Positions 13,601 to 54,820 of a stretch of 64,000 bases of DNA are shown here, piece after piece (position 1 is the stretch's first letter; every line of letters starts with the position of its first letter). The DNA is taken from the IMG/VR virus record IMGVR_UViG_3300005826_000294, positions 1 to 64,000 of that record; one strand, given 5' to 3'. The DNA is from a virus. A model generated the notes under the pieces. That model was given only the letters and a program-made list of their open reading frames with translations, ran no database searches and was not told the origin of the DNA. A program made the position numbers and the translations under genes.

Positions 13601-13610
13601 AATAAAATAA

Positions 13611-34512: not shown

Positions 34513-35318
34513 AATATTTTAGAAGCTAATGTTGCTAATTCAGATCTTTCTCCCTTTTTTAGAGTAATATGTCCTGCTATTTTTTGATCTTTAAATTTCT
34601 CTACAACATGAGTTAAACCATTATCAGCAAAATCAAGATAAGGAACATCTATCTGATTTATATCGCCAGTTATTACTATCTTACTACCTTCTCCAATTCT
34701 TGTAATAATTGTTTTAATTTCATGAATAGAATTATTTTGAGCTTCATCAAGTATCATAAATGACTTTGGAACAGATCTTCCTCTAATATATGTTAATGGC
34801 TCTATTTGTAACAGCCCACTAAACTTATATTCTTCAATCATTTGTTTATCGCCACCTAATAAAAACTCCAAATTATCATAGAGAGGTTGCATCCAAGGTT
34901 GAAGTTTTTCATCGATAGTATTATGAGTGACTATAAAATCATCAGTTATATATAAATGTTCAGGGTTTTCTATTAGTATACACTGAACTTCTTTTTCCCC
35001 AACTAATTCAACTGATGATATTTTATCTACAGAATTTGTGTGTTTGAAATATTTAGATTTTCTACTTAAATAAAATGGATTTACTTCATTTCCAAATCTA
35101 ATCGAAACATCATACCCAATATGCTTAGATATTATCTTTGATCTATTAATTATGTTTATTCTTCCCAATCTATTTCTTTCTCTAATTCTTGCTCTCCCGC
35201 CCAATGATTTTACTAATTCAACAATATCTAAACTTAATTGTTTTGAGGTAGTTGAAAAGGTCGCTTCTCCAGTCTTTTTCTTTACACATCCATCAGTATC
35301 CATCAACCGTTCCCTCAA
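34509..35318 (-). pseudogene. phoH: PhoH C-terminal fragment preceded by intein C-terminal half
   Basis: Residues 1-133 (35318-34920) are the end of an intein: a DOD endonuclease motif ERLMDTDGCV, then HLYITDDFIVTHN with the terminal Asn. After it, TIDEKLQPWMQPLYDNLEFL, ILDEAQN and VITGDINQID are PhoH ATPase segments (Walker B and sensor). The Walker A part and the intein N-half are missing. A TTG could start translation, but splicing cannot occur. The upstream PIN domain survives at 38163-38366, beyond an inserted unit. Confidence 0.82.
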
Positions 35319-36418: not shown

Positions 36419-37032
36419 TTTACCTTTGCTTGTTTCAATTTCTTTCTATTCTCAGCAGATCGTTTCCCATAGATTCTTGCGGAAAAAGACGACATTAAAG
36501 ACAATATGTCTTCCACTAATTCTGACTCATATGACTTCGGTAAAGTATCTTCTATTACTTCTACCTCAACACCAAAACTTTCAAAATATTTTTTCAACAG
36601 GTTGAAATTAAATCTAACAAGTCTGTCTTTGTGCTCAACTACAAGTCGTGATATTTTGCCATCTGCCGCCATGTCCATAAGTTTTAACAGTTTGCGGCGA
36701 TTGTCTGACATACCAGAACCAACTTCATCACAGATGTATTTAACTTTGTAATCTTTCTCGGCACAGTATTTGACTAATCTCGCTTGTTGCCTATCTAAAT
36801 CACCTTTTTGTTTTTGTTCGTGGCTAGACACTCTACAATAGATTGCTATGTCGTCTGTTTGCTCTTCGTCTTCAAATCCCTGCATCGCTTCTATTTCAGA
36901 AAGTAAATATCTGCGATGCCCGCCAATTGTTTTTTGAGGAGAGATCTTATCATCGGATTCCCATCTGCGAAGCGTTTTTGGATCTACACCCAATAGTTCT
37001 GCGGCCTCTTTTATGGCGATGAGTTTATTCAT
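36415..37032 (-). CDS. tnpA: IS607-family serine recombinase
   Basis: 205 residues. N-terminal MerR-like HTH (IKEAAELLGVDPKTLRRWESD, then GGHRRYLLSEI), then a resolvase domain with catalytic Ser in IYCRVSSHEQKQKGDLDRQ and the arginines in VVEHKDRLVRFNF. This order (HTH first) is typical of IS607 TnpA. Start overlaps the preceding gene by 8 nt. Looks intact. Confidence 0.92.
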   Translation of the reverse strand: MNKLIAIKEAAELLGVDPKTLRRWESDDKISPQKTIGGHRRYLLSEIEAMQGFEDEEQTDDIAIYCRVSSHEQKQKGDLDRQQARLVKYCAEKDYKVKYICDEVGSGMSDNRRKLLKLMDMAADGKISRLVVEHKDRLVRFNFNLLKKYFESFGVEVEVIEDTLPKSYESELVEDILSLMSSFSARIYGKRSAENRKKLKQAKVK

Positions 37033-37213
37033 ATACTTCGATCTCTAAATAATAATCTTCGGTACTTAATGGAGATTTTATTACATGACCAAAAGGTTTT
37101 TGATTATCATTAACAGGTTTGGTTGTGAACTGATGGTCTTTGATATAAATAAGTGAATTTATTGGATATAAATATCTAGCATCATAACTCTTCGTTTTAA
37201 CATAAATCATCAT
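37025..37213 (-). CDS. Small hypothetical protein upstream of tnpA
   Basis: 62 residues, MMIYVKTKSYDARYLYPINS through YYLEIEVYE. Coupled to the previous gene (its ATG shares bases with the stop) and overlapping tnpA. Either cargo of the element or a phage gene trapped by it. No family recognised. Confidence 0.6.
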   Translation of the reverse strand: MMIYVKTKSYDARYLYPINSLIYIKDHQFTTKPVNDNQKPFGHVIKSPLSTEDYYLEIEVYE

Positions 37214-37830
37214 TAATCTCTTTCTTTATTTTTGATTAACTTTCCACCCAACTTTCTTTCCAAATCTTTAATTTTTTTGTTGAGTAAATATTCTTTTGAA
37301 CTTATACTATTATACAAATCATTAAATTCTTTTTTATCTTTTAAAAAAATGTCCCATTCTTTTTTAATCCATTTTAAAGCATTCATTAAAGCATTAATGC
37401 CAATAACAAACTCCTTACTTGTGGGTTCGTTTTTGATATAATTTAGATATGTCAAATTCCCTGTTTTGCGTCTTAATCCATCTCTCCAATGCCAATATTT
37501 AGACAACAATTCTTTGTTGTTTGTAACACCCGCTTCCTTGGCTACAATATTATCCAATTTTATAACTATGTCTTTTAAATCTTCAGCAATAGATTGTATA
37601 GACACATTATCTTCATAGATCTTTTTAATAAGAGCAGCAAGCCCAACAATTCCAGCCAATCCTACGGTAATGGCAGATTTTGGATAAGAATAAAAATAAT
37701 TAAGTCCAACTTTAGGGGCAACTTCAATATATTCTCTAGCACGAAGTAAAACCGCCCCAGCATAACTGGTTTCTACTGTTCCAGCACCTTTATACAATTG
37801 CCTTTTAGACAAGATAAATTTTTTTTTCAC
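37213..37830 (-). CDS. Hypothetical protein with central hydrophobic helix
   Basis: 205 residues. Hydrophobic segment about 52-70 (SAITVGLAGIVGLAALIKK), long charged helices afterwards and a Lys-rich end. Could be a membrane-anchored or virion-internal protein. Located inside the inverted-repeat unit. No family recognised. Confidence 0.62.
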   Translation of the reverse strand: MKKKFILSKRQLYKGAGTVETSYAGAVLLRAREYIEVAPKVGLNYFYSYPKSAITVGLAGIVGLAALIKKIYEDNVSIQSIAEDLKDIVIKLDNIVAKEAGVTNNKELLSKYWHWRDGLRRKTGNLTYLNYIKNEPTSKEFVIGINALMNALKWIKKEWDIFLKDKKEFNDLYNSISSKEYLLNKKIKDLERKLGGKLIKNKERD

Positions 37831-37872
37831 AATTGTTCACCTACAAAATAAAATTACTACCACAATGTATCT

Positions 37873-38091
37873 TTAATCCCTATTCTGCCCTAACTCGGAA
37901 TGTAAGTCGTGACCTCCATCCCGTTGGAGAGGTAACTCCCGACCCATTGATCCTAGAAGTTTATAACAATATTCATAGATTTTTTGAAACTCTTCTACAG
38001 TTGGCACCTCTTCCAACTCTACCATATGAGGATATATGGTGCCGTCGTCAAGTTCAAATTCTTCGGAATCTACTCTTACTACTTTTCTCAT
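37873..38091 (-). CDS. Small acidic hypothetical protein
   Basis: 72 residues; AGAGGTG upstream of ATG. MRKVVRVDSEEFELDDGTIY, then PTVEEFQKIYEYCYKLL helix. A candidate promoter motif lies 20 nt upstream. First gene inside the inverted-repeat unit. No family recognised. Confidence 0.62.
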   Translation of the reverse strand: MRKVVRVDSEEFELDDGTIYPHMVELEEVPTVEEFQKIYEYCYKLLGSMGRELPLQRDGGHDLHSELGQNRD

Positions 38092-38111
38092 TTCTACACC
38101 TCTATGTTAAA

Positions 38112-38121
38112 ATATTAGCAG
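38112..38121 (-). promoter_or_regulatory. Candidate phage promoter motif CTGCTAATAT
   Basis: Third copy. It lies within the inserted unit upstream of its first gene, which hints that the three small genes are phage genes rather than insertion-sequence cargo. Confidence 0.4.
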
Positions 38122-38162
38122 ATTTTTGTCCAAGTTTCTTCAAAAATGTCCAAGTTTATTGA

Positions 38163-38366
38163 CTACTGTTGGTAACCCTTTTCCCTTAACTCATCCAACA
38201 TTCTAATTGCACTTCTAATATTACGACCAAGTTCATCTGGACGAGCTTTCATATTATCTAATTCATCCAATACTGAAATGGGAATAATGACTTCATTGTC
38301 GTCAAAAATCTTAAGAGCGGAAGGGTCATACATTAGCACATTAGTATCAAGAATAAATTTTTTCAA
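38163..38366 (-). pseudogene. phoH: PhoH N-terminal PIN-domain fragment
   Basis: 67 residues from a TTG at 38366, with AGGAGG 9 nt upstream. KFILDTNVLMYDPSALKIFDD, IPISVLDELDNMK and GRNIRSAIRMLDELREKG are the first half of the PIN ribonuclease domain of PIN-PhoH proteins. The frame ends in TAG exactly at the edge of the inserted unit. The catalytic D after this point is lost, so probably inactive. Confidence 0.8.
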
Positions 38367-39405: not shown

Positions 39406-39726
39406 TTATTTCTCCAATTTTTGTAAATGTTTTGCCCAAGAGTCAATATGGATTTCATAATACCAATTAGGCTTATCTTTTATTAATATAAGTCTAGGAA
39501 CTTTCCATTGAGCTACAATCTCATCATTCTTATAAACATCTAAAGCTCCATCATAATTGTTCCAAACTTCTATGTTTGAAGATGAAAGATGCTCTTTCAT
39601 ATCTTCCATGTCCAATTCAAATAATTGTTCAGAAATTCCCAAAGCTAAAAGAACTTCAACTAACCAATCATGCTTTTCTTCCTCTATAACTTTCTGTTCA
39701 TCTCCCCTATCTGCTAAAACCAACAT
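39406..39726 (-). CDS. Hypothetical acidic protein
   Basis: 106 residues; ATG 39726 shares TAATG with the RNR stop, so it is translationally coupled to RNR. Acidic (LFELDMEDMKEHL) with W-rich beta segments later. No family recognised; could be an RNR accessory by position only. Confidence 0.62.
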   Translation of the reverse strand: MLVLADRGDEQKVIEEEKHDWLVEVLLALGISEQLFELDMEDMKEHLSSSNIEVWNNYDGALDVYKNDEIVAQWKVPRLILIKDKPNWYYEIHIDSWAKHLQKLEK

Positions 39727-42700
39727 TATCCACACCTACTCTCACCACAATCTAAACAACTCATACATCCTTCTTCCATTCTTATATTTGAACTTCCACA
39801 CTTTTCACATAATACTTTCCTCATATCTAAACTTTCAGATAAAATATTACAAAGTCGTGCGGATAAACTTCCAGCATAAGAATTAGAATCTAATATGTCA
39901 ACCGCTTTATCTAAATTATTGGTTTTCATAGATAATGATAAAAATCTTGTTAATCTTGTTAAAGAATTATTGCTTCTATCAATATATTTTTGTATTCTAT
40001 CTTCCGCAACTCCCTGATTTGAAAGCATTTTTATTAGAGCATTACTAGTTTTAATAAATGAATCACTTTCTTTCTTTTTATAATTAAGAACAAAAACTTG
40101 ATAAGGATGCTTTATATTTTTATCCTTATAAGAAATCATTATGTAAAACTTATCTCCTCCTTCGGCTCTAACACATCTTGTAATAGTATCCATATTTGGA
40201 GTTTTTTTCTTCGCAAATTTCTCTGTAACCAAAACTCCTTCTCTTGATCCTTCTCTATAAACAGTAATTCCTTTTAATCCTTCTCGCCAAGCATCCATAT
40301 AAATTTGACTAACAACTTCTGGAGAAACATCTGCTGGTAAATTTATTGTACTAGAAATACTAGCATCAATGTGTTTTTGAAGAACCCCTTGAAGTTTAAC
40401 ACGATGTTGATAATCTATATCATGAGCGGTCACCCAATATTCTGGTAAATCTTGTTTCCCAACAATGTTAAAAAACCTAGAAATTCCCTGATGATATACT
40501 GAAAATTCCTTTTTCTCTTCTTTGCCCAACATTACATTTCTAGTATATGAAAAAGCAAAAATTGGTTCTGCACCTCCAGAACATTGAGCTATAATTGAAA
40601 GTGATCCGTTTGGAGCAATTGTTGAAATTGCGACATTTCTTAAACCATTTTCTTTAGCCTTTTGTTTTAATTCCTCTGGTAATGTAGCACAAAAACCACG
40701 AGAAAAATGAATATTTGGATCATATAAAGGAAATGGTCCACGAAGTTTTGCTAATTCAATAGAAGCATCATATTCATGTAATTTTTTAAACTCCATTAAT
40801 TTATCCGCAAACTGAATTGCTTCATCAGAATCATATTTTATTTTGAGAGAAACAAACATATCCGCAAGACCAGTAAGGCCTAACCCTATTCTACGACCAG
40901 ACACCGATGCTTCTTCCTGCTCAGCAAGAGCATGCTTTCCTATGTTTAATTGTACTACATTATCCAAATGTCTAACACCACGAGAAATCATCTCACCAAA
41001 TAATTCAAAATCAAATTCTGCTTGATCAGTAAAAGGATTTTTAACAAATTTATGTAATAATAGAGAAGATAATACGCAAGTTCCACCATTTTCTAATATT
41101 TGCTCACCACAATTTAAATTATTGAAATAAAACCATTTTCTTTTTCCAAAAGGAGTTGTACTTTCAAAAGCTCCTGTAAAAAAATTATGGAATTCATCTA
41201 CAGTACCATTGTAAACATTTTCATATCCACAAAACTCTACACTAACTACTCTATGATTATAATCTAAAGCAGATTCTTTTAATTGTTTGAAATTGAATTT
41301 TAATGTTTGGATAACATTGTTTTCGTTACAATATTGTTCCCATTCTTTTTTTCTAGGTTCTCTACTTAATTTAAATTTTAAATCTGTATATGCTTTAAGT
41401 TGATTTTCTTTATCTGTATATTCTTTAGATTTATATCCAGAATTTATATTACCCATATAAACAGAACGGCATTTTCTAGAACAAATTCCTGATTCTCTTC
41501 TACTATGATGAATTTCATATTCTTTACCACAAATTTCACAATTTTTAATAATAAAAATTTTCTTGTCCCTAATAATACAATTATATCCTTGTTCTAATAA
41601 TTCTAGATAGTATTTTTTATTTATAGGATCAAGATCAATATTATTTAAACCACATTTGTTAAATGCCCATTTTGATAATCCTAAAATCCCTCCAAGATGG
41701 TCATTACGCCATTTTGGAAATTGCTCCGTAATTTTATTATTTCTAGCATATTTAATCCAATCTTCATTAGAAAACATACATCCCAATTCTTTTGTAAGTA
41801 AAACTGCATGTTGCTTTAATTCTTCATTAGAAACATTACTAATGAATTTTGAATCATTTTCAAATCTAGTTATAATTCTTAGACTATCTCCTTTTTTTAA
41901 TTCATCAGTTCTTCTATAAGAACCATTTTTTAGTCTAAATTTATGATTATTAGTCACTTTAAGATGATTGCCATCATCAAATGTAATTTTATAAACTGGT
42001 TGATTATATCCAGTAATTCTAGGATTACGCATATTCCTTATAGATATTTTTTCATCATTGTCAAAACAAAATACAGGAACATCTTTACCTTCTTCAGCTA
42101 ATTGTTTAATCGAAACATTATTTCTTCCATCAGCAACATAAACCAAAGTATCACCAACAACACATGGATTTGTAGAATGAACTTTTAGTCTCTCATACGA
42201 ATCCGATGGAGACATTTCAACCATTTTTGTCCAAAATAAAAGACCAGGCTCTGCTGAATCACGAGCAGATAAGATAATTTTTTTCCATAAATCACGAGCC
42301 TTAATAGTTCTTTTTATTGTCTCGTGGTAAGTTTCAAAAGACAAAGTAAAATCATCATCATTTTCAACAGCCATCATAAAATCATCTGTTAATTTAATAC
42401 TTATATTAGCATATTTTACTTTATCTATATTATTATGCTTCATTTCAACAAACTTTTCAATATCTGGATGATTAACAGGAATTGTAATCATAAGAGCACC
42501 ACGACGCCCATGTTGTCCAACAAGCCCGGTAGTTAATGAATAAAGATCCATAAAACTTACAGCTCCTGTAGAAAATTTAGCACTATTAGACACCTTTGAA
42601 TCTTCTGGCCTAAGTTCTCCAATACATAGACCAATACCGCCACCGTATGAATATGTATGTGCTAATTTCTTTGCTGCATTGAAAATACCTTCTAAACTAT

Positions 42701-43103
42701 CATCTTCAATCTTTGTAACATAACAATTAGTGTAAGTTGCCTTATTAATATACTTATTTCCCAAAGCAAACATTTGCCTGCCTGCTGGTAAAAAATATTC
42801 ATATAATTCACGAAAATAACCTACTTTTTTTTTACCATTTGGAAACTCATTTTCTGCGGAAACTATACATTCTGCCCATCTGTCTTTTGCTTCTTCCAAA
42901 GTAAATTCAATTATCTTATTATCACCATCTCGAAGAGCATATTTTTTATAGAAAACAGATGTAGCAATTTCATCACCGCCAAAAGACTTTAAGGTTTTCA
43001 ATACATTTTCTCTATTTAGACCGCAATTATTTAATTCTGTATCAGATAAAATCCTATCTATTGTGGAACCAATATCATCATTTAAATAAATTAAGTTATT
43101 CAT
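39726..43103 (-). CDS. nrdJ: Adenosylcobalamin-dependent (class II) ribonucleotide reductase with intein
   Basis: 1125 residues, of which 314-664 are an intein, giving a 774-residue mature enzyme. Exteins: TNCYVTKIEDDSLEGIF (substrate Cys region), YSYGGGIGLCIGELRP, then after the intein CGEQIL, and the catalytic loop FSYTRNV. The C-terminus has the NrdJ tail CEKCGSSNIRMEEGC with redox Cys. Makes dNTPs from NTPs without oxygen and without a small subunit; needs B12 from the host. Coupled to sigma factor upstream (1 nt). Confidence 0.9.
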   Translation of the reverse strand: MNNLIYLNDDIGSTIDRILSDTELNNCGLNRENVLKTLKSFGGDEIATSVFYKKYALRDGDNKIIEFTLEEAKDRWAECIVSAENEFPNGKKKVGYFRELYEYFLPAGRQMFALGNKYINKATYTNCYVTKIEDDSLEGIFNAAKKLAHTYSYGGGIGLCIGELRPEDSKVSNSAKFSTGAVSFMDLYSLTTGLVGQHGRRGALMITIPVNHPDIEKFVEMKHNNIDKVKYANISIKLTDDFMMAVENDDDFTLSFETYHETIKRTIKARDLWKKIILSARDSAEPGLLFWTKMVEMSPSDSYERLKVHSTNPCVVGDTLVYVADGRNNVSIKQLAEEGKDVPVFCFDNDEKISIRNMRNPRITGYNQPVYKITFDDGNHLKVTNNHKFRLKNGSYRRTDELKKGDSLRIITRFENDSKFISNVSNEELKQHAVLLTKELGCMFSNEDWIKYARNNKITEQFPKWRNDHLGGILGLSKWAFNKCGLNNIDLDPINKKYYLELLEQGYNCIIRDKKIFIIKNCEICGKEYEIHHSRRESGICSRKCRSVYMGNINSGYKSKEYTDKENQLKAYTDLKFKLSREPRKKEWEQYCNENNVIQTLKFNFKQLKESALDYNHRVVSVEFCGYENVYNGTVDEFHNFFTGAFESTTPFGKRKWFYFNNLNCGEQILENGGTCVLSSLLLHKFVKNPFTDQAEFDFELFGEMISRGVRHLDNVVQLNIGKHALAEQEEASVSGRRIGLGLTGLADMFVSLKIKYDSDEAIQFADKLMEFKKLHEYDASIELAKLRGPFPLYDPNIHFSRGFCATLPEELKQKAKENGLRNVAISTIAPNGSLSIIAQCSGGAEPIFAFSYTRNVMLGKEEKKEFSVYHQGISRFFNIVGKQDLPEYWVTAHDIDYQHRVKLQGVLQKHIDASISSTINLPADVSPEVVSQIYMDAWREGLKGITVYREGSREGVLVTEKFAKKKTPNMDTITRCVRAEGGDKFYIMISYKDKNIKHPYQVFVLNYKKKESDSFIKTSNALIKMLSNQGVAEDRIQKYIDRSNNSLTRLTRFLSLSMKTNNLDKAVDILDSNSYAGSLSARLCNILSESLDMRKVLCEKCGSSNIRMEEGCMSCLDCGESRCG
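41112..42164 (-). mobile_element. Intein in the RNR active-site region
   Basis: 351 residues inserted at NP/CGEQ. N-terminal Cys in CVVGDTLVY, block B VTNNHKFRL, block F GTVDEFHNFFTG, terminal NNLN followed by Cys. The penultimate residue is Leu rather than His. The central part has CEICGKEYEIHHSRRESG with CSRKC, a zinc-bound nuclease-like insert rather than LAGLIDADG. Confidence 0.88.
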
Positions 43104-43738
43104 TATTTTACCTCAAAAAATTTTCTCAATTCTATATTTTTACGTAATTTTAAAACGGCACCAGAACTTATTTGTTCTATTCGTTGTTTTGTTAAAGAAA
43201 ATACATCACCGATCTGTTGATAAGTTTGACCTTCATTATGCCCATCTAATCCAAATCTCATCTTAATTACTTTCTTGTCCATATCAGGAAGTTCGTTTAT
43301 AGCTAAAAGCAACATCTTTTTTGCTTCTTTTTGTTCAAGAGTAGTTGCTGGTGTTGATTCATCAATATAATCTATAACATAATCAACAAGAACTTCCTTT
43401 TTTCTTCTCTTATGTTTTTTTAAATATATTCTAATTTTATTTTTGATATGCCAAATACAATAATGAAAAAAGTTCGGACATCTCGATGGGTCAAACTTAT
43501 CCATAGCCATCATAATTCCGAGACACGCTTCCTGCATTAAATCTTCATATATATTAGTATTCTTATAAAATGCTATTCTTTTTCCAATCATAAAACTCAT
43601 ACGAGATATTATACGACCTTGAATAAAAGATTTTTTATTTTTTGGAGCCTCTTTCCAAGCTTGTATAAGACCTAATATTTCATCATTATAGACATAGTAG
43701 GTCTTATCCCACTCTGTCTTTACCTCATTGTTTTCCAT
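43103..43738 (-). CDS. Sigma-70-family factor
   Basis: 211 residues. Region 2: YEDLMQEACLGIMMAMDKFDPSR and HIKNKIRIYLKK. Region 4: LPDMDKKVIKMRFGL then QTYQQIGDVFSLTKQRIEQI, a good HTH. No region 1.1 or 3 of note. Directs host RNA polymerase, most likely to phage middle or late promoters; candidate target motifs are listed separately. First in line ahead of RNR. Confidence 0.9.
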   Translation of the reverse strand: MENNEVKTEWDKTYYVYNDEILGLIQAWKEAPKNKKSFIQGRIISRMSFMIGKRIAFYKNTNIYEDLMQEACLGIMMAMDKFDPSRCPNFFHYCIWHIKNKIRIYLKKHKRRKKEVLVDYVIDYIDESTPATTLEQKEAKKMLLLAINELPDMDKKVIKMRFGLDGHNEGQTYQQIGDVFSLTKQRIEQISSGAVLKLRKNIELRKFFEVK

Positions 43739-44289
43739 TATTTACCTACTGTGGGTGGAGTCCACCCATTATTAAGGTCTTCTTTAAAAACAGGACGAAG
43801 ATCATTAAGAGCATTGAATACAAATTTAGAATTTTTAAGTGCTGATTTCATAGCATCATATGTTCCACCACGTTTTTTTCCTACCCAAAATGCTATTACA
43901 AAACTAGCTTCCTCTATCATTTTACTATTTCTTTCAAAATATTTAGAAACATCGTATTCAATATTAGGATCAGGTTCCATAATATTTATTCCAATTGCTT
44001 TCTGTAATTGTCTATCTAACTCTTTTCTTTGTTCGTACGTCCAATAGGACGCTTGAACTTTTGGATGAAATGGTAAATATAATCTAAATTTTACATTATT
44101 TTCTATACAGGCAGAACCTACCCATAAATCAGCACCTAAGGCTCCACCCAAATTAAAACATAAATTTTCACCATATTCTTTTTTAAGCTTCCATACAACA
44201 TCATCAGCTATTCTTTGTATTGTTGATGGGTTATAATGAGATATTAAAAAAGAATCGGGGCGATGCCCCGTTATAGCAATATGAATCAT
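43738..44289 (-). CDS. SLOG-family protein (YpsA/DprA-like Rossmann fold)
   Basis: 183 residues, AAGGAG upstream. AITGHRPDSF and LGGALGADLWVG form the nucleotide-binding turns of SLOG proteins; SYWTYEQRKELDRQLQKA and WVGKKRGGTYDAM follow as in YpsA. SLOG domains bind nucleotides or derivatives and occur in stress and defence signalling. Role here unknown. Between SpoVR and the sigma factor. Confidence 0.82.
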   Translation of the reverse strand: MIHIAITGHRPDSFLISHYNPSTIQRIADDVVWKLKKEYGENLCFNLGGALGADLWVGSACIENNVKFRLYLPFHPKVQASYWTYEQRKELDRQLQKAIGINIMEPDPNIEYDVSKYFERNSKMIEEASFVIAFWVGKKRGGTYDAMKSALKNSKFVFNALNDLRPVFKEDLNNGWTPPTVGK

Positions 44290-44298: not shown

Positions 44299-45738
44299 TT
44301 ATGGTAAAATAATTCGACCACGATAGGGTTGATCTTCTTCAACTTCTTCAAAACTTAATCCTTCATCTAAATTCTTCTCATAATATCCACCCTCATCAAA
44401 ACAAAGAATAATTTCCTCATCTTCCTCATTTTTAGTATAAAGTTCAATACGAGCTGCCCATAAATCCCAAATATATTCAAGTGTTTTGGAAGCAAATTTA
44501 TGATCAAGAGTCCCAGATTCAGAACTATTATGTTTCAAAATAAGAGTACCATCAGGACCAATTTCAGTAATCACAATCTTAGGAACTCCTCCATTATATA
44601 AAGAAGAAATTAGAGTTTCTACAACACAATCTCTAATTCTCTCTTTAACTTCAATAAACTTATCTCCCTTATGATCCTTTGGATAATCATCAACATATCC
44701 AAAAGTAAATAATTTCATTTCTTCAACCAAATCAGCAGTTAAATAATTTCTAATAAAAGATATATCATTTTCGTTTTTAATTACATCAAATACTTTTTTT
44801 CTCCCTTCACCTTTCCCATATTTTTCATCCCATCTTTTTTCGATGTCTTTAAAAATCTTAAACCCAAGATAATATGGGTTTATTCTAAAGGGATTCCCGC
44901 CAGGTTGAACAACTTTTTCATGAGTTCTTAGAAAATCTACATATTCTGAAGAACTTAAATTATAATTATACATAACTTCCGCATGCCAATAACTAGCTGC
45001 CCCCTCATGAACTATCTTTGTTTGCATCTGTGGATAAAAATAAAACTGCTCTTCTCTTATAATATCAAGAACATCCTTCTCCCATTCTTCCAATGGAGCA
45101 TAATTTATAAAAAACCATAATAAATCTTTTTCTGGATGTGGAGGAATTTTATTACAAGAAACATTAGGTTTTGGTTTCTTTTTTATTAACAAATCATCAA
45201 ACTCATTTGGTTTTCTTCTATTACATTTTACAGGTTTAACTCCATATGGTTTTCTATAAAGTCCCTTATGCCAATCAATATGATGACTCAAAGCCATACC
45301 AATATCCATTAAATGCTCAACTTTTTCAAACCCATATTTTTCAATATAATCTTCAATTCTTCCTGCATGCTCGGCAGCATGTTTAATCATATTTCTATTA
45401 GTATTTTCAAACATATAATTGTTTTTAAACACAGCACTATGCCCTTGACAATGCGCTACTATAAACAAATTTTGAACTTCTGTGTTCGTATCTAAAAGAA
45501 AAGCATAAGAAGGATTGTTGTTTAATATTACTTCATAAATTTTGGAATATCCCATCTCGCCTGTTGCTTTTTGAAAATCATATGAACGACCATAACTCCA
45601 ATGCCTAGCTCTAGTAGGAAGACCATAAGCACATATATTAAACATCGTAGATCGTTCAATTATCTCATGAACAACAGGAAAAGCATCAATCCCAAGTTCT
45701 AATCCAACTTCTATTACTTCTTCAAATCGTTTATTCAT
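44299..45738 (-). CDS. spoVR: SpoVR-family protein
   Basis: 479 residues, full length for the family. Signature AYGLPTRARHWSYGRSYD, KIYEVILNNNPSYAFLLDTN, LFIVAHCQGHSAVFKNN and SHHIDWH with conserved His residues. In bacteria spoVR follows prkA and yeaH; the same order is found here, with ATGA overlap to yeaH. Bacterial function is sporulation cortex (Bacillus) or stress/stationary response (enterics). In a phage it may redirect that pathway. Confidence 0.92.
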   Translation of the reverse strand: MNKRFEEVIEVGLELGIDAFPVVHEIIERSTMFNICAYGLPTRARHWSYGRSYDFQKATGEMGYSKIYEVILNNNPSYAFLLDTNTEVQNLFIVAHCQGHSAVFKNNYMFENTNRNMIKHAAEHAGRIEDYIEKYGFEKVEHLMDIGMALSHHIDWHKGLYRKPYGVKPVKCNRRKPNEFDDLLIKKKPKPNVSCNKIPPHPEKDLLWFFINYAPLEEWEKDVLDIIREEQFYFYPQMQTKIVHEGAASYWHAEVMYNYNLSSSEYVDFLRTHEKVVQPGGNPFRINPYYLGFKIFKDIEKRWDEKYGKGEGRKKVFDVIKNENDISFIRNYLTADLVEEMKLFTFGYVDDYPKDHKGDKFIEVKERIRDCVVETLISSLYNGGVPKIVITEIGPDGTLILKHNSSESGTLDHKFASKTLEYIWDLWAARIELYTKNEEDEEIILCFDEGGYYEKNLDEGLSFEEVEEDQPYRGRIILP

Positions 45739-46901
45739 CTTCCACCTACATTTGGTAAAAATTCTTTAAGGGTTTGGTAAATATCTTCACGCTTCTCTAT
45801 TGTGGCAACTACGAACCTCTCATTATCAGCAAGTTCTCCGTCTTTTTCAAAAATATCAGCTAAATTAGACCACAATGATGTTCCTCCAGACCATCCCCAA
45901 AAATTAGAAGATACTTGAACTTCACCATATCCTACAGATTGACATAATGGAAGAATGTCTTTTACAGATTTTAAACACCTACTATTATCTTCCGGCCAAT
46001 TATCTCCATCGGAAAAAGCAAATACATAATTATTCCAAATATTTGTTGGAAACCTATCTTCTATTATTTTTCTCGCTAAAATAAATCCCGAACTAACCAT
46101 TGTCCCACCAGATTGAGAAATCTTGAAAAAATTCTCCTCTTCAACTTCCTTTGCCTCTGTATCATGAGCAATAAATACTAATTCCACATTATCATACTTT
46201 TTCTCAAGAAACCTAACCATCCACCAAAAAAATGATTTAACAATATATTTCTTTTCAGAAGTCATGCTTCCTGATCTATCCATAATAAGAATAACTGTAG
46301 CATTAGAATGCCGCTCAATAACTTCTTCATATACTTTATATCTTAAATCAGATGGATCAAAACCTCCGATTTTCATTTTCCCCTTCATAGCATTCTTTCT
46401 CATATTTCTTAATACAGTCCTTCTCTTATCTATATTAGAAGCTAATCCTTTCTCTGCTATATCTTGAAAAACAACATCTTCGGTTTCTATCTCTATAGAT
46501 TTTTCTTTTTGCTCCATCCAAGGTAGATCAAGATCTTCAAGCATCATTTCTACAATTTCTTCAATATCTACCTCTTCCTCATAAACATCTTCACCAGATT
46601 CTTGACCGGCCTTTCCTTTTCCCTGACCAGGATTTTCTTTAGCAATTATATCACCAGGATCACCATCCCCTTGCCCCACACCCTTTTGCTTATTGTTCTT
46701 GCCAAATTTAAATCTCCACATATCCAAAAACTTAATGGGAACTTTTACTTTCTTTCCACCCTTTGAAGAAATTATATTTTCTTCAGATATTAAATCATGT
46801 AGATTCTTTTTAATTGCTTCCCTTATTCTCTGTTTATGTCTTTCCGAGTCAATAGCCCCCGGTTTTCTTAAACTCCAAATATCTTTAAAACTATCGGACA
46901 T
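45735..46901 (-). CDS. yeaH: YeaH/YhbH (DUF444) VWA protein
   Basis: 388 residues. Typical DUF444 N-terminus (RHKQRIREAIKKNL), a Gly/Asp/Lys linker about 70-105, then a VWA domain with MIDAS DRSGSM (208-213), SQSGGTMVSSGF and AFSDGDNW. 8 nt after prkA, 4-nt overlap with spoVR. In bacteria it works with the PrkA/YeaG kinase in a stress module. Confidence 0.93.
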   Translation of the reverse strand: MSDSFKDIWSLRKPGAIDSERHKQRIREAIKKNLHDLISEENIISSKGGKKVKVPIKFLDMWRFKFGKNNKQKGVGQGDGDPGDIIAKENPGQGKGKAGQESGEDVYEEEVDIEEIVEMMLEDLDLPWMEQKEKSIEIETEDVVFQDIAEKGLASNIDKRRTVLRNMRKNAMKGKMKIGGFDPSDLRYKVYEEVIERHSNATVILIMDRSGSMTSEKKYIVKSFFWWMVRFLEKKYDNVELVFIAHDTEAKEVEEENFFKISQSGGTMVSSGFILARKIIEDRFPTNIWNNYVFAFSDGDNWPEDNSRCLKSVKDILPLCQSVGYGEVQVSSNFWGWSGGTSLWSNLADIFEKDGELADNERFVVATIEKREDIYQTLKEFLPNVGGR

Positions 46902-46909
46902 TTTTCACC

Positions 46910-48835
46910 TTATCTCGTTCTAGACATAATGTTATTTACATAACGAAGTAATTCATTAGCACTCTCTGCAGTATATCCATGATAATCAACTAAAGAACTA
47001 ATAACAGAATTTAATTTCTTTAACGCTTCAGGTTCAGGATTTCTTGTAGAAACTGTTAATCTAATAGTGTCAGCTCTTTCCTCAAAAAGTTGCTTCTGTA
47101 AAGCTTCCTTTAATTTTGGGTGGCTTTGCCACTTATATTCTCCATCTTCATTCTTAGTCTTTAACATTTTTCTATAAACTTCAGATCTAAATGAATCCTT
47201 TCCTGTGCTTGTAATCTCTACCTTTTCTTCAACACTTCTCATTAATTCTTCATCTGGATCAACTAACTCATCCCACTCATTTTTACACTTACTATCATCT
47301 AAATATGCAGCAACATTATCAAGATAATTTTCAAGCAAATTGTTAATTTCATATTCAAAATTAACAAAAAAAGCCTTTTGAACCTCATTCATCGCAATCT
47401 TATTATATTCTTCAACACATAAAGAAACAAGATTTTCTAGTTTTTCTACTGCTTCATCATCAAGTTTAGCATTTGTTGGAAGACCTTCCTTAATACTTCT
47501 AAGAGCACTAATAGGAGTAATATATGTTGCTCCATGCTTTGCTAAACACGCAGAAAGTCTATTAATAATATATCTTGGAGAAACTCCATCTAATCCTTCC
47601 CTTTCAGCCGATTTTTGAAGTTCCTTAATATCCTCTTTCGTAAATCCATCAACATCCTTACCATTATATAAATGCATCTTTTGTAGAATTGTTATGCTCT
47701 TATCTTTTGGTTCTTCCAATCTGGACAAAATAGCAAACATCGCGGCAATTTTAAGAGTATGAGGAGCAATATGAATATTCTTAAATCCATCCGCTTCTTT
47801 CATTAATTTCTCATAAATCCTAACCTCATTATCTACCCCTAGATTATATGGAAACGGAATTAACCAAAGTCTATCATGTAGAGCTTCTTCAGTCTTATCT
47901 CCTCGGAACTTTAAAAATTCTGTTTCATTAGAATGACCTACAGGAACTAAATCAGCATAAATTAACGGAAACCTTTCAGTTTTAATTCTCTTTTCTTGAA
48001 CCAATGTTAAAAGGATATATCTGAATTTTGGATCTACCTTCAAAAGCTCAATAAATTCCATAACTCCTCTATTAGAAATATTAAGCTCTCCATCAAAGTT
48101 ATAAGCTAAAGGATGAGACTCTACTCCAAACTCTTCCAATTTGGCAAAATTAACAGACCCTGTAAGTTCTGATTGTGATTGACTCTTTTTATCAGCTGGT
48201 TGAAATGTTCCAATACCAATTCTATTCATCTCCGATAAAAATATTCTCTTTACAGGAATTTTCCAGAAATCTTCTCCAAATTCATTTTGTAATCTATAAG
48301 CACATTTTGGACAAAGATCTCCTTCAATAGAAATTCCGTACTCTTCCTTTAATCCTTTTCGTGCGGAATGAGGTATAGCATTAAGAGGATTTTCAAACAT
48401 TGGACAACCATCAATCGCAAAAAGCCTTCCACTCTCTGTCCTAGAAAAAAGTTCTAAACCCTTTTTAAGAGTTGTAACAAATTGACTCTTACCAGAGCTA
48501 GTGGGTCCCCATAATAATAAAAGTCTTTTCTTCGCATCAGATCCATTCCCCGCAGCTCTAAAAAACTCCATAACTTGAGCTAAAACATGATCGATTCCAA
48601 ACAACTCATCTTCAAAAAATTTATATTTTGGTGTCTTATCAATAAAATCAACTCCCTGTTCTTCAATCATTCTACAAACTCTAGAATGTGATGTTTCATT
48701 ATAAGAAGGATTTTCCAAAACCATAGGAAGATAGTCTTTTAGTGTTCCAGACCATTTAGTAAGATCCAAATTACTTGTAGATTCTTCTACTAAATTTAAA
48801 ATACTTTTCTTCTTACTGTTTGTTACTTTGATCAT
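46910..48835 (-). CDS. prkA: PrkA/YeaG-type serine protein kinase (AAA+)
   Basis: 641 residues, matching bacterial PrkA length. AAA+ part: Walker A GPTSSGKS (110-117), the family's cysteine pair in GDLCPKCAYRLQNEF, FLSEMNRIGIGTFQPAD and VPVGHSNETEFLKFRGD. The C-terminal PrkA domain is present (RYIINRLSACLAKHG). It starts right at the stop of the endonuclease at 48836, so it is coupled to a homing gene. Bacterial PrkA phosphorylates proteins or acts as an ATP-dependent protease-like regulator under stress. Confidence 0.93.
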   Translation of the reverse strand: MIKVTNSKKKSILNLVEESTSNLDLTKWSGTLKDYLPMVLENPSYNETSHSRVCRMIEEQGVDFIDKTPKYKFFEDELFGIDHVLAQVMEFFRAAGNGSDAKKRLLLLWGPTSSGKSQFVTTLKKGLELFSRTESGRLFAIDGCPMFENPLNAIPHSARKGLKEEYGISIEGDLCPKCAYRLQNEFGEDFWKIPVKRIFLSEMNRIGIGTFQPADKKSQSQSELTGSVNFAKLEEFGVESHPLAYNFDGELNISNRGVMEFIELLKVDPKFRYILLTLVQEKRIKTERFPLIYADLVPVGHSNETEFLKFRGDKTEEALHDRLWLIPFPYNLGVDNEVRIYEKLMKEADGFKNIHIAPHTLKIAAMFAILSRLEEPKDKSITILQKMHLYNGKDVDGFTKEDIKELQKSAEREGLDGVSPRYIINRLSACLAKHGATYITPISALRSIKEGLPTNAKLDDEAVEKLENLVSLCVEEYNKIAMNEVQKAFFVNFEYEINNLLENYLDNVAAYLDDSKCKNEWDELVDPDEELMRSVEEKVEITSTGKDSFRSEVYRKMLKTKNEDGEYKWQSHPKLKEALQKQLFEERADTIRLTVSTRNPEPEALKKLNSVISSLVDYHGYTAESANELLRYVNNIMSRTR

Positions 48836-50446
48836 TTAATCTCCTTTACATAATTTCTTTAAAATATCTACTTTCTTTTTAGATTGGTAGATCTCAACTG
48901 CAGTTTTTATAATTTCTGATTTTGATGCTAAAATAGGTTCATAAACACAATCTTTTTTAAATCCCTCCCATCTATAAATAACTTTATAACCATTTTCACA
49001 AAGAGTATTTAATTTATTTATTGTTTTATATAATAAAGTATAAAACATCTTTCCAACTTTTTTATTTACTTTATTTGGATTAAAGACTGCTGGATTTCCG
49101 TGCCAAAAATCTCCTAAAAATTCATATACAACATTATCTTTAAATCCGTCAGCAAAAAACCTCTTCCCATTTATTTTTATTAATTTTTCCCTTTTCTTAA
49201 TATTTTTGTTGTTTAACCATTTAGTAGAAACCTTTGATATGTTTTTAGAACAATGAGGACATCCTCTTTCATATCTATTACAAATTGTAACATTCCATTC
49301 ATGATTATTTTTACAAATCCACCAAACCTTTTTATGAGATCTCGGTAGAACATCCTTTGGTGTTAAATCTCCATTTCTTTTATAATTCCACTCTTTAGCT
49401 AATTCGGGATTTATTTTATCTAAACAATTATCTTTACATACTTTTTTATTAGAACAATAGGGACATTTACTACCATTATTTCTACCGGCAACTCTAGCTT
49501 TCCATTCATGATTATTTTCACAAATCCACCATATTTTTTTATCAGAACCTGATGTTACATCATCTGGTGTTAAAACATTTTTAGAACTCCATTGCTTCGC
49601 TAATTCAGGATTTATTGTTGATAAACAATTATCTTCGCATACTTTATTTCCTGAGCAATAAGGACATGTGTTTTTATCTTTTCTATTTATTTGAGCTTTC
49701 CATTCATGATTATTTTTACAAATCCACCATACTTTCATATTTGAACCAGCCGTAACCTTATTTGGAGTTAAATTTCCATTTTTAGAACTCCATTCTTTTG
49801 ATAGTTCTGGGTGAGTTGTGGCCAAGCAATTATCTTCACATACTTTTTTACCAGCACAATAGGGACAACCTACTTTTTGCTTTCCACTTCTATGATAAAT
49901 TTTTGCTTTCCATTCGTGATTGTTTTCACAAATCCACCATACTTTTTTATTAGATCCTGATGTAAAATTTTTTGGTGTAAGATTACCATTTTTTGTAGGA
50001 TGCCACTGTTTCACTAATTCAGGATTTATTGTTGCTAAACAATTATCTTCGCATACTTTATTTCCCGAGCAATAAGGACAATTATTACCTTTATTTCTAT
50101 CTGCAATTCTAGCTTTCCATTCATGATTTTTCTCACAAATCCACCACACTTTTTTTTCTGATCCTTGGGTTACATCTTTGGGAGTTAAAATATTTTTAGA
50201 ACTCCATTGTTTTGCTAATTCAGGATTTATTGTTGCTAAGCAATTATCTTCGCATACTTTCTTATTAGAACAATAAGGACAATTTCTTCCATTATTTCTA
50301 TGACTTACACTCGCTTCCCATTCGTGATTTTTCTCACACAACCACCACACTTTTTTAGTAGAATTTACGGAAACATCATTAGGTGTTAAAGTATTTTTAG
50401 AACTCCATTGCTTCGCTAATTTAGGATTTTTTATGGAAAGGCTCAT
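48836..50446 (-). CDS. DUF4379 zinc-repeat homing endonuclease
   Basis: 536 residues from ATG 50446 with AGGAG upstream. Six repeats of about 65 residues: NPELAKQWSSKN, VWWICENNHEWKA and CPYCxxKKVCEDNC. Then the nuclease domain YEFLGDFWHGNP and IYRWEG, as in 51865 and 24861. DUF4379 arrays are thought to recognise DNA through zinc ribbons. Inserted head-to-tail against prkA without spacing. The repeat number differs between paralogues. Confidence 0.85.
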   Translation of the reverse strand: MSLSIKNPKLAKQWSSKNTLTPNDVSVNSTKKVWWLCEKNHEWEASVSHRNNGRNCPYCSNKKVCEDNCLATINPELAKQWSSKNILTPKDVTQGSEKKVWWICEKNHEWKARIADRNKGNNCPYCSGNKVCEDNCLATINPELVKQWHPTKNGNLTPKNFTSGSNKKVWWICENNHEWKAKIYHRSGKQKVGCPYCAGKKVCEDNCLATTHPELSKEWSSKNGNLTPNKVTAGSNMKVWWICKNNHEWKAQINRKDKNTCPYCSGNKVCEDNCLSTINPELAKQWSSKNVLTPDDVTSGSDKKIWWICENNHEWKARVAGRNNGSKCPYCSNKKVCKDNCLDKINPELAKEWNYKRNGDLTPKDVLPRSHKKVWWICKNNHEWNVTICNRYERGCPHCSKNISKVSTKWLNNKNIKKREKLIKINGKRFFADGFKDNVVYEFLGDFWHGNPAVFNPNKVNKKVGKMFYTLLYKTINKLNTLCENGYKVIYRWEGFKKDCVYEPILASKSEIIKTAVEIYQSKKKVDILKKLCKGD

Positions 50447-50511
50447 ATTTTTTCTCCTATATCCCATTATACGAAACTAGAATTCAAAATTCAACGCAAT
50501 TTTGGAAAAAA

Positions 50512-51406: not shown

Positions 51407-51688
51407 TTATTTATTACCATAATACTCTAATGCTCCTTTTTCTCCAAGATAGTCTGCGGCTTTTTCAATATCACCATTTCTGATATCTTCAATATCTTTT
51501 TTTGCTTCTTGTTTTATTTGTTCTCCTAATTCTTTAGCATCTCTAAATACTTGGGCATTTGTGTTAGAAATTAATCTTTTTATTAATTCTCCACATTCTG
51601 GACATTCTGTTAATGGTTCATCTGTAATTGGTTGAAATTCTTCAAAAAAATAATCACAAACATTACATTTATATTCATAAAACGGCAT
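51407..51688 (-). CDS. FmdB-family zinc-ribbon protein
   Basis: 93 residues. MPFYEYKCNVCDYFFEEFQP then LTECPECGELIKRLIS: the two CxxC of FmdB-type regulators in the first 40 residues, helical tail after. Such proteins are small zinc-ribbon regulators. In the phage it may bind nucleic acid or RNA polymerase. Confidence 0.85.
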   Translation of the reverse strand: MPFYEYKCNVCDYFFEEFQPITDEPLTECPECGELIKRLISNTNAQVFRDAKELGEQIKQEAKKDIEDIRNGDIEKAADYLGEKGALEYYGNK

Positions 51689-51709: not shown

Positions 51710-51877
51710 TTAACCTTGTTTTTTATCATCAATAACTAATTTTACATCCATATTTTGCCACTCTCTTATAATTCTCTGTCTCCACGTTGGATCTGTAACT
51801 TCCATTTCCAAATAAACTTGACCTGTATCCGTATTTACCTTTACATTTAAAAGTCTAGCAATTTCTATTTCAACCAT
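51710..51877 (-). CDS. Small hypothetical protein
   Basis: 55 residues from ATG 51877; GGAGAGAAA upstream, inside the last codons of the endonuclease gene. MVEIEIARLLNVKVNTDTGQ then a helix with WRQRIIREWQNMD. Looks like a small beta-alpha fold. No family recognised. Confidence 0.68.
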   Translation of the reverse strand: MVEIEIARLLNVKVNTDTGQVYLEMEVTDPTWRQRIIREWQNMDVKLVIDDKKQG

Positions 51878-53454
51878 TTTCTCTCCATAAAAATATCTAC
51901 ATATTCATCCATTTTAAATATTCTCAAAGCATTCTTTTTTATATTTTTAACATTTACCGGAAAATATTGTCTTGATTTATCACTTTCCCATTTATAAATA
52001 ATTATAAATTTTTTATTTAAAATATTTAACCTTTTCGCCGTCTTAATCAAAATATCAAGATACAACATATTCTTTATTGGATGGATTTTTCTTGGGTCAA
52101 ATATATTGGGGTTTCCATGCCAAAAATCTCCAAGAAACTCATAAATAACATTATTTTTGATTCCATCAACAATATATTTTCTTCCTCTTATAATGATAGA
52201 TTTTTCTCTATTTGTAATTCCTATCTCATCCAACCATGCTTGAGATATTTTTGAAATACAATTCTTACTACATTTAGGGCATCTTGCCCCACTATTCCTT
52301 CTATTTATTTGAGCTTTCCATTCATGATTATTTTCACAAACCCACCATACTTTTTTATTTGATCCAAAAACTACATCATTGGGAGTTAAAATATTTTTAG
52401 AACTCCATTGTTTTGATAATTCAGGATTTATTGTTGCTAAACAATTATCTTCACAGACTTTCTTATTAGAGCAATAAGGACAGTTTCTTCCATTATTTCT
52501 ATGACTTACACTCGCTTTCCATTCATGATTGTTTTCACAAACCCACCATACTTTTTTATCAGATCCAGCTAACACATCATAAGGTGTTAAAGTATTTCTA
52601 GAACTCCATTGTTTTGCTAATTCGGGATTTGTTGTGGTCAAACAATTATCTTCACATGCTTTTTTATTGGAACAATATGGACAACCTAAATTTTTGTTTC
52701 TTTTATATATTAATGCTTTCCACTCATGATTATTTTCACACACCCACCACACTTTTTTATCAGACCCTGATGTAAAATTTTTTGGAGTAAGGTTTCCATT
52801 TTTCGTAGGATGCCATTGTTTTGATAATTCGGGATTTATTGTAGATAAAGAATTATCTTTACATACTTTCTTATTAGAACAATAAGGACAATTTCTACCA
52901 TTACTTCTATGACTTATACTTGCTTTCCATTTATGATGATTTTCACAAATCCACCATACTTTTTTACCAGATTTACATACCACATCATTTGGAGTAAGGT
53001 TTCCATTTTTATCAGGATGCCATTGTTTTGCTAATTCAGGATTTATTGTTGCTAAACAATTATCTTCACATACTTTCTTATTAGAACAATATGGACAATT
53101 ATTTCCACACATTCTATCATTTATTACTGCTTCCCATTCGTGATTATTTTTACAAATCCACCAAACTTTTTTATTTGAACCAGAAACTACATCATATGGA
53201 GTTAAAATATTTTTAGAATTCCACTCTCTTGCTAATTTTGGATGAGTAGTTGCTAAACAATTATCTTTACAAACTTTTTTATTAGAACAATAAGGGCACC
53301 CCGAAACATTTCTTGAATATATTATGGCTTTCCACTCATGATTATTTTTACAAATCCACCAAACTTTTTTAGTAGAATTCTTAGAAACATCTTTTGGTGC
53401 TAAATTACCATTTTTAGTTGGATGCCATTCCAAAATTAACTTCTTATTCAGCAT
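51865..53454 (-). CDS. DUF4379 zinc-repeat homing endonuclease
   Basis: 529 residues from ATG 53454, which overlaps the helicase stop (ATGCTGAATAA); an earlier in-frame ATG would start deep in helicase coding. Six to seven DUF4379 repeats (VWWICKNNHEWKA, CPYCSNKKVCEDNC), then YEFLGDFWHGNPNIFDP and YKWESD nuclease motifs. Paralogue of 48836-50446 with strong sequence similarity in repeats, so the pair can recombine. Placed directly behind the replicative helicase gene. Confidence 0.85.
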   Translation of the reverse strand: MLNKKLILEWHPTKNGNLAPKDVSKNSTKKVWWICKNNHEWKAIIYSRNVSGCPYCSNKKVCKDNCLATTHPKLAREWNSKNILTPYDVVSGSNKKVWWICKNNHEWEAVINDRMCGNNCPYCSNKKVCEDNCLATINPELAKQWHPDKNGNLTPNDVVCKSGKKVWWICENHHKWKASISHRSNGRNCPYCSNKKVCKDNSLSTINPELSKQWHPTKNGNLTPKNFTSGSDKKVWWVCENNHEWKALIYKRNKNLGCPYCSNKKACEDNCLTTTNPELAKQWSSRNTLTPYDVLAGSDKKVWWVCENNHEWKASVSHRNNGRNCPYCSNKKVCEDNCLATINPELSKQWSSKNILTPNDVVFGSNKKVWWVCENNHEWKAQINRRNSGARCPKCSKNCISKISQAWLDEIGITNREKSIIIRGRKYIVDGIKNNVIYEFLGDFWHGNPNIFDPRKIHPIKNMLYLDILIKTAKRLNILNKKFIIIYKWESDKSRQYFPVNVKNIKKNALRIFKMDEYVDIFMERKWLK

Positions 53455-54820
53455 TCTGTCCTTCAAACTCTGGACTCCAACTGTCAAGATCTTCATCATA
53501 TATTCTCATTAAATCAAATCTTTTTTGTAGCATAAAACATCCACCTTGTTCTCCATCTCTCATTTTTACAATATGTATCGGCATATCTAATCTTGTACTT
53601 TCATCCTCCCTTGTTTCAATATTTAACATTATATTACAATTCTGAGGTAGTAATATGCTTCTTCCAACTCTCTCTTGCCCAGGAGCCCTGTCCCCAGGCT
53701 TATTCCTTGTGAGCTGAACAGGAGAAATTAAAGGAATAGAAAAATTACGACAAAAATCATGTAAATATTCTGCTAATCGACCTAAATTTAACCAATCTTG
53801 TTCTAAATTATTATCCGCTTTTAAAAGACTAATATAATCTATAACCACAATTTCTGGAACAAAATCATATAATAATTCCAAATATTTAGCTTCTATTTGT
53901 GCAACTGTACAACCTCTTGGAATATCTACCACATAAAATTGTTTTGGATATATTTTTTGAAATGATAAAGCATTAAAGTATTTCTCTTCTTCACTATTAG
54001 TTAAAGTCCCGTCTCTAATTCCATACAAAGGAACCTCAGCTAAACACGCATCAAAACGTCTTCTAAATGGATCAAATGGCATTTCTAATGTAAAATATAC
54101 AACATTAGCTCCATCTGTGGAAAACTCTGGAACTGGACTACCAGGTGGAGGAACTGAATTACTACCCAACCAACAATTCATAGCCATATTCATTGATAGA
54201 GTGCTTTTACCAGATCCGCTTGTTCCTCCTATTAGAATTAATTCTGATTTTTGTAATCCATTTGTTATTCTATCTAACTCCCTATAACCTGTCAAAAGTC
54301 CTTTAGCAATTTCAGGATTTTCTTTTCTTTTGATATATTCTTCTTTGGCACTATCACTTGTTTCAGCAACAGTCCCTTCTTTATATGTTCTTCCAACTTC
54401 TAACTGATCAAGTTCCCCAACAACCTTTTTTAAAGATTTCGCTGCTTCCTGTAGATCATTAAAATCTTTGCCGTTCCAATTCTCTTTAAATATTTCTTTT
54501 CCTACTTTTAATATAGTAGTTTTCTTATATCTTTCTTTAAGATCTTCTAATTCAATAATAAAGTTTTCTGGTACGAAATCATCATCATTTTTAATATCTT
54601 TTGCTGTTTCAAATATATTTTTTAGGTCATCATCCCATTTTTCACATCTTTTCATCATTTCAATTGTTGGGACTTCATTATATTTCTTAACACATTCTGC
54701 TATGACTAATAACATAGGTCTAAACTCGGGCTTTAGGGTTTTTGGCATTACTTTATCAACAACCTTAATGGCTAGAGATTTATTAGTTATAGCATATGCT
54801 ATTATTCTTTCATCTAACAT
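53444..54820 (-). CDS. Replicative DNA helicase (DnaB/T4 gp41-like)
   Basis: 458 residues. N-terminal helical domain, then RecA fold: Walker A GGTSGSGKS (198-206), VVYFTLEMP, Walker B IVVIDYISLL, the QLTR sensor in PVQLTRNKPGDRAPGQE and a following RVGRSILLPQNC arginine-finger region. Hexameric 5'-3' helicase for fork unwinding. Overlaps the loader gene by 7 nt, so both are made together. Confidence 0.93.
   Translation of the reverse strand: MLDERIIAYAITNKSLAIKVVDKVMPKTLKPEFRPMLLVIAECVKKYNEVPTIEMMKRCEKWDDDLKNIFETAKDIKNDDDFVPENFIIELEDLKERYKKTTILKVGKEIFKENWNGKDFNDLQEAAKSLKKVVGELDQLEVGRTYKEGTVAETSDSAKEEYIKRKENPEIAKGLLTGYRELDRITNGLQKSELILIGGTSGSGKSTLSMNMAMNCWLGSNSVPPPGSPVPEFSTDGANVVYFTLEMPFDPFRRRFDACLAEVPLYGIRDGTLTNSEEEKYFNALSFQKIYPKQFYVVDIPRGCTVAQIEAKYLELLYDFVPEIVVIDYISLLKADNNLEQDWLNLGRLAEYLHDFCRNFSIPLISPVQLTRNKPGDRAPGQERVGRSILLPQNCNIMLNIETREDESTRLDMPIHIVKMRDGEQGGCFMLQKRFDLMRIYDEDLDSWSPEFEGQNAE

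Follow-up and report, generated by a model that had tools for sequence, protein, structure and literature searches.

The window, a 64,000-nucleotide stretch of viral DNA (positions 1 to 64,000 of IMG/VR virus record IMGVR_UViG_3300005826_000294), encodes PrkA, DUF444, and SpoVR proteins in three consecutive genes. The source record is 301,683 bp in length, and the window has 31% G+C content. The trio is listed below, with protein lengths in amino acids (aa).

46910-48835, minus strand: PrkA/YeaG-like AAA+ ATPase, 641 aa, full length, with AAA_PrkA and PrkA C-terminal domains
45735-46901, minus strand: DUF444/YeaH/YhbH-like protein, 388 aa, with N-terminal helices, a Gly-rich linker, and a C-terminal VWA domain
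44299-45738, minus strand: SpoVR/YcgB-like protein, 479 aa

The genes are transcribed in the order PrkA, DUF444, SpoVR, which is the usual bacterial order. PrkA and DUF444 are separated by 8 bp, DUF444 and SpoVR overlap by 4 bp, and a ribosome-binding site (AAAGGAG) lies upstream of prkA. An Rfam search around the locus gave no match, and promoter-like sites there were no more frequent than in shuffled sequence. The trio was confirmed as complete, intact, and co-transcribable, and as lying in a genuine phage. A first-pass annotation of this DNA had described full-length proteins with intact motifs, in bacterial order and tightly coupled. These points were borne out by the lengths and spacing above, by Pfam E-values of 4e-100 to 2.5e-105, and by the presence of the Walker A motif, the full set of metal ion-dependent adhesion site (MIDAS) residues, and SpoVR residues H96, H100, and E245.

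Domains and conserved sites of the three proteins

Window PrkA matches the Pfam AAA_PrkA profile over nearly its whole length (E 2.5e-105, 352.9 bits) and the PrkA C-terminal profile over its whole length (E 3e-67, 227.4 bits). Both domains exceed the 25-bit cut-off and occur in the correct order. The protein also matches a solved PrkA chain (9xip_A) with 442 bits. Its Walker A motif is GPTSSGKS; among 159 viral copies, G110, P111, K116, and S117 are invariant, G115 is variable, and R322 is identical in all. Window PrkA shares the family of the proteobacterial YeaG equivalog PRK15455 and fails its cut-off (251.7 bits versus 576). A PrkA profile weakly matched the MoxR ATPase RavA (E 9e-4), and Lon was matched equally. 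The kinase label of PrkA is disputed in the literature and is doubtful, because no kinase activity could be detected in purified Bacillus anthracis PrkA, which also had negligible protease activity and formed oligomers with ATP (PMC13001217).

Window DUF444 scores above the Pfam cut-off (E 4e-100, 336 bits) and matches YhbH TIGR02877 (E 3e-122) with 408.1 bits, under the equivalog cut-off of 467.95. Its AlphaFold2 (AF2) model matches VWA domains, with a best E of 1e-8. The MIDAS is complete (D208, S210, S212, T267, and D298) and identical in 162/162 viral copies.

The SpoVR domain was recovered at E 2e-104 (350 bits versus a cut-off of 27), and the SpoVR_C domain, aligned over profile positions 10-54 of 55, scored 20.3 bits against a cut-off of 27.6. 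Because SpoVR_C falls under its Pfam cut-off and all three proteins fall under the NCBIfam equivalog cut-offs, the window PrkA, DUF444, and SpoVR are, as judged from profile scores, diverged members of their families. The invariant motifs of SpoVR are H96xxGH100, E245-G246-x-A248, N287-x-Y289-xx-G292, and D325. Residues H96, H100, E245, G246, N287, Y289, G292, and D325 show no differences across the 157 viral and 65 bacterial copies compared. In the AF2 model (predicted local distance difference test score 90.5), helix 87-106 carries H96 and H100, spaced by one helical turn, and a later helix (241-258) carries E245. As a guess from the model, this arrangement could bind metal. SpoVR carries HxxGH and no HExxH zinc motif; its second position holds a residue other than Glu (in the window, C). 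A sequence comparison of SpoVR with the PDB returned nothing convincing.

Several SpoVR genes contain inteins. These are placed after VIN in L054, L074, and L124, directly after HxxGH-S in L170, and inside the NEG-A motif in viral loci L010, L012, L101, and L170 and bacterial loci L186 and L251. The L010 and L101 inteins were read from the sequence and have no Pfam intein match. L054 and L055 are near-identical viruses, one with and the other without a SpoVR intein. Inteins favor active sites, and their occurrence at conserved sites beside both putative active-site motifs supports an active center in SpoVR.

Distribution and evolution of the trio in viruses

Profile scans of IMG/VR viral contigs recovered at least 258 confirmed PrkA relatives and 209 DUF444 relatives; a viral scan with the window PrkA sequence alone recovered none. 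Loci were counted around the best 80 of the at least 258 PrkA relatives. The full trio is present in 76, the remaining four run into a contig edge, and none of the 80 lacks a gene. The two gene orders are about equally common in viruses, with PrkA-DUF444-SpoVR at 58 loci and DUF444-SpoVR-PrkA at 62 (one with a split DUF444), and both also occur in bacteria. At nearly all loci PrkA and DUF444 are adjacent or one or two genes apart. Broken relatives, named beforehand as counter-evidence, did not occur; only a few frameshift-like splits were found. Genes divided into two overlapping frames are DUF444 in L067/L068, PrkA in L130, and DUF444 in L245. The L130 split is likely a sequencing error, and an intact counterpart is present in L131.

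Isolated phages also encode the trio. All matching Thermus phages (phiYS40, YS40_Isch, TMA, phiLo, MN1, and Lalka8/27a/27b) have PrkA, SpoVR, and DUF444/vWA genes, mostly annotated as serine kinase, SpoVR, and conserved or vWA protein. They resemble the window in carrying a complete trio and differ in gene order (DUF444-SpoVR-(X)-PrkA), in PrkA sequence (33-36% identical), and in their smaller genomes. In phiYS40 a 616-aa protein with no assigned function (YS40_058, L002:5031-6881) is encoded between SpoVR and PrkA; YS40_Isch has the same arrangement, and phiLo, MN1, and Lalka8 do not. The trio was also found in huge uncultured phages LR745206, LR756502, LR756504, and LR756511. Ralstonia jumbo phage RsoM2USA encodes SpoVR (ORF28) and PrkA (ORF30), separated by a gap the size of one gene (PMC8504454). 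It is like the window as a jumbo phage with both proteins, but its best matches are proteobacterial and its middle gene is unnamed.

The first-pass annotation had treated a phage trio as unusual, which does not agree with the Thermus phages or with the at least 258 IMG/VR contigs encoding PrkA. Its statement that no phage function is described for the whole trio agrees with our literature search, in which we found neither a paper giving the trio a phage function nor an experiment on any phage copy. The trio in phages is an already known kind of observation; its extent and integrity in viruses, and its chaperonin partner there, seem undescribed.

Across about 160 viral copies, many of which share only 20-35% identity with the window, the catalytic and MIDAS positions show essentially no variation. 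Median ratios of nonsynonymous to synonymous substitution rates (dN/dS) among near pairs are 0.032 for PrkA, 0.058 for DUF444, and 0.050 for SpoVR. The distance matrices of the three proteins are correlated (Mantel r 0.95-0.96 versus a permutation maximum of 0.11). Invariant sites, low dN/dS, and matrix correlation together identify the trio as functioning genes that travel together.

In the PrkA phylogeny, viral sequences lie among bacterial ones in several places. Well-supported branches force at least six label changes, and the hypothesis of one viral clade is rejected (approximately unbiased test, p 3.65e-5). On this tree evidence the trio was acquired several times by viruses. The number of captures is approximate because some bacterial rows are contigs of metagenome-assembled genomes that could themselves be phage. 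The tree also contains all-viral clades with deep branches. Window PrkA groups with that of viral L012 (52% identity) with full support, and PrkA proteins of L013-L016 are 53-54% identical to it. Bacterial prkA-yhbH and yeaG-yeaH-ycgB(spoVR) operons share with the window the three families, the motifs, and the gene order of most bacterial loci compared. They differ in sequence, the nearest bacterial PrkA being 45-48% identical to the window protein and the window trio scoring below the equivalog cut-offs noted above.

The viral setting of the trio was examined in the record and its nearest relative. A phrog_2 terminase match is present at 230678-231682 of the record (E 1e-13), and the record gave no match to T4-type capsid Gp23 or Terminase_6N. 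Genes for phage DnaB helicase, helicase loader, ribonucleotide reductase (RNR), and a PhuZ-like tubulin are near the trio. An independent 318-kb viral contig, L092, keeps the gene order of the window across 17 kb at about 40-75% identity: helicase, loader, DnaB, FmdB, PrkA, DUF444, SpoVR, SLOG, sigma, RNR, and PIN-PhoH. Because this backbone is shared, the trio belongs to a stable viral backbone rather than to an assembly accident. Bacterial DNA misassembled into a phage, or binned as one, is an extremely improbable source of the locus. The trio is a bacterial operon, and Enterobacter phage LAU1 may be one such case, but the synteny with L092 already refutes this explanation for the window. 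The best matches, among those listed, are viral (53-70%) rather than bacterial (45-48%), and the trio is present in complete genomes of phage isolates. The bacterial or prophage chimera raised in advance as a refutation thus did not materialize. In LAU1 (MN688132, L008), yeaG-yeaH without SpoVR occupies positions 1-3308 at the extreme start of a 30.8-kb lambda-like record, and these genes may belong to host sequence at the flank and not to the phage.

Partner and neighboring genes

In one virus group, a gene for a diverged GroEL-like protein of about 415 aa is found within 300 bp behind prkA in 28/39 loci. The protein has a profile match to GroEL over the intermediate and apical domains (E 3e-31), and its equatorial domain seems reduced. 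It was not recognized by Pfam or PHROGs. An example is L070:6588-7874, with 38 other viral loci; several of the viruses with this gene have a normal GroEL as well. Ordinary viral GroEL is encoded elsewhere in 10/32 trio-virus records tested, including L092, the nearest relative of the window. FmdB is found upstream of prkA, no more than about 1 kb away, at 23/127 viral loci (directly upstream in L092 and in other viral trio loci) and at 0/80 bacterial loci, a further difference from the bacterial operons. A ClpP/head-maturation-type protease follows spoVR at some viral loci. In Thermus phage Lalka8, unlike the window, the trio is located between a minor head gene and TerL. Recurrent neighbors outside proteostasis are PhoH, DNA polymerase III alpha, and a PfkB-like protein (read from the sequence). 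The viral neighbors suggest a proteostasis theme that is not uniform.

Other genes flanking the trio in the window are the following.

43738-44289, minus strand: SLOG/YpsA-like nucleotide-binding protein, 183 aa, adjoining spoVR (PF06908 E 1.4e-4, under the cut-off)
43103-43738, minus strand: sigma-70-family factor with regions 2 and 4, 211 aa (Pfam E 2e-11 and 2e-9)
51407-51688, minus strand: FmdB-type zinc-ribbon protein, 93 aa (Pfam Zn_ribbon_8 E 7e-15)
48836-50467, minus strand: DUF4379 treble-clef homing-endonuclease-like gene (six Pfam DUF4379 matches; phrog_559 HNH endonuclease)

The sigma factor and SLOG neighbors reported in the first-pass annotation are both present, with the YpsA match of the latter under the Pfam cut-off. 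The SLOG-like protein matches phrog_289 (E 4e-12) and is kept only in L092 (55% identity); the sigma factor is kept in L092 (44%) and weakly in L014. In L092, FmdB (5710-6003) is followed by PrkA from 6049 with no DUF4379 homolog between them, and the DUF4379 gene of the window is probably a later mobile insertion outside the unit.

The window contains three DUF4379/HNH-type endonuclease genes (24861-25901, 48836-50467, which abuts prkA, and 51865-53499), which suggests a heavy homing-endonuclease load. The RNR large subunit (39726-43103) contains an intein (Pfam Intein_splicing), and its L092 homolog aligns as two blocks flanking the intein. The PIN-PhoH gene (34509-38366) is split, with residues 1-64 at 38366-38175 and residues 293-425 at 34916-34512. 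The halves are separated by a LAGLIDADG stretch and by an IS607-like element (resolvase, 36415-37032; TnpB-like gene, 35315-36418); no match to the middle part of PhoH was recovered. A gene at 59793-61193 has weak similarity to phage tubulin PhuZ (phrog_4733, E 6e-5) and is kept in L092, L012, L014, and L015. Nine tRNAs, four of them tRNA-Lys(TTT), are clustered at 4636-13695.

Possible roles of the trio in infection

We consider the chances about even that the trio is a virus-maintained protein-remodeling unit acting in infection, most likely on phage clients. PrkA would be the AAA+ motor, DUF444 its VWA/MIDAS adaptor, and SpoVR, with its conserved HxxGH...EGxA center, an obligate third member that is either an enzyme or the remodeled complex. 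During productive infection, large phages may rely on the unit for folding, activating, or processing protein complexes, and these would most likely be their own complexes in late assembly or maturation. From these data we infer one complex of three proteins in which PrkA does not act as a kinase, SpoVR has the role just given, and the clients are phage proteins. The unit would work like MoxR AAA+-VWA pairs, among them the remodeling pair NorQ-NorD (PMC13036017), RavA-ViaA, and the tail chaperones of Acidianus two-tailed virus, whose MoxR-vWA pair p618-p892 is required for tail assembly (PMC7824862). MoxR-vWA(-metallopeptidase) pairs of jumbo phages have been proposed to act in virion assembly (PMC7824862). 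As in the trio, an AAA+ motor and a MIDAS VWA partner are encoded together in MoxR pairs, sometimes with a metallopeptidase. However, PrkA constitutes a separate AAA+ family and carries a C-terminal PrkA domain, and a metallopeptidase role of SpoVR is only putative. The chaperonin gene behind prkA in one virus group supports the remodeling interpretation. Further support comes from the linkage of the whole trio, the invariant sites, the low dN/dS, and the matrix correlation given above, from the VWA model of DUF444, the weak RavA match, and the properties of B. anthracis PrkA, from the protease and GroEL genes of other trio viruses and the location of the trio in Lalka8, from the MoxR-vWA precedents, and from the SpoVR inteins.

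Several observations weigh against it. The chaperonin neighbor is limited to that one group and absent from the record of the window. In the window and L092, the trio is located among replication and nucleotide genes (DnaB, RNR, and PhoH), not head or tail genes. Expression, virion proteome, and interaction data on the trio were not found in the literature, and the passage on the virion gel of RsoM2USA names no trio protein. The AF2 fold of SpoVR has no significant PDB match by Foldseek; weak matches include zincins, all at E > 0.3. These matches and a shared EGWA-like motif prompted a comparison with zincin profiles, and hhalign to DUF885 and IrrE gave only 4-7% probability. Since HExxH is absent and this comparison fails, SpoVR is not called a metallopeptidase, and its metal center is a guess. 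A broader proposal is offered tentatively, namely that large phages of several lineages share an undescribed assembly or proteostasis apparatus based on the captured bacterial stress trio, with SpoVR as a new kind of metalloenzyme, to which a reduced GroEL-like chaperonin is added in one virus group and FmdB in others.

A role in host physiology is possible though rather unlikely. The phage trio would supply or raise the bacterial stress response and sustain a starved or slow host through a long infection. In bacteria the trio takes part in stationary-phase, osmotic, and sporulation responses (PMC13001217) and in Escherichia coli stress networks, the latent period of RsoM2USA is 270 min, and several captures from bacteria would suit a useful host function. 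However, the viral partners are chaperonin, protease, and zinc-ribbon genes, not host regulators, the bacterial module itself has no settled output, and the deep all-viral clades suit integration into viral biology.

The mechanism offered in the first-pass annotation was a kinase whose action fixes the host in one state or prevents sporulation. Phosphorylation of host targets by phage PrkA, holding the cell in a replication-friendly state, is improbable and is the weakest part of that reading. PrkA and SpoVR are Bacillus sporulation genes, window DUF444 most resembles the YhbH family, and the low G+C content of the window would fit a Bacillota host, itself only conjectured. But the known host genera, Thermus and Ralstonia, do not sporulate, and carriers include their phages and many environmental contigs. 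A blocker would also need no three intact catalytic or binding proteins at dN/dS near 0.05, and the supposed kinase activity is disputed, none being detectable in the B. anthracis protein (PMC13001217). Dismantling or inactivation of a host anti-phage complex by the AAA+ machine is very improbable. Bacterial conflict systems include AAA+ and VWA proteins, and SLOG proteins resemble nucleotide sensors, but no PADLOC anti-phage defense family matches the trio convincingly (the one match obtained, a marginal one, was between Csx3 and the ATPase region of PrkA). Counter-defense genes usually vary and have a patchy distribution; the trio, by contrast, is stable as a unit and has invariant sites.

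Repeated viral capture, always of the whole trio, and strong purifying selection indicate that the three proteins function together and that their function may be required outside sporulation. In bacteria, where PrkA-YeaH-SpoVR is tied to sporulation and stress, its biochemical output is not settled. The SpoVR intein sites and invariant HxxGH/EGxA residues point to an active center, and the isolated small-genome Thermus phages MN1 and Lalka8 provide a tractable system for trio function. If large phages do use the trio as part of such an apparatus, the biochemical output of its bacterial counterpart would become apparent from the phage version.

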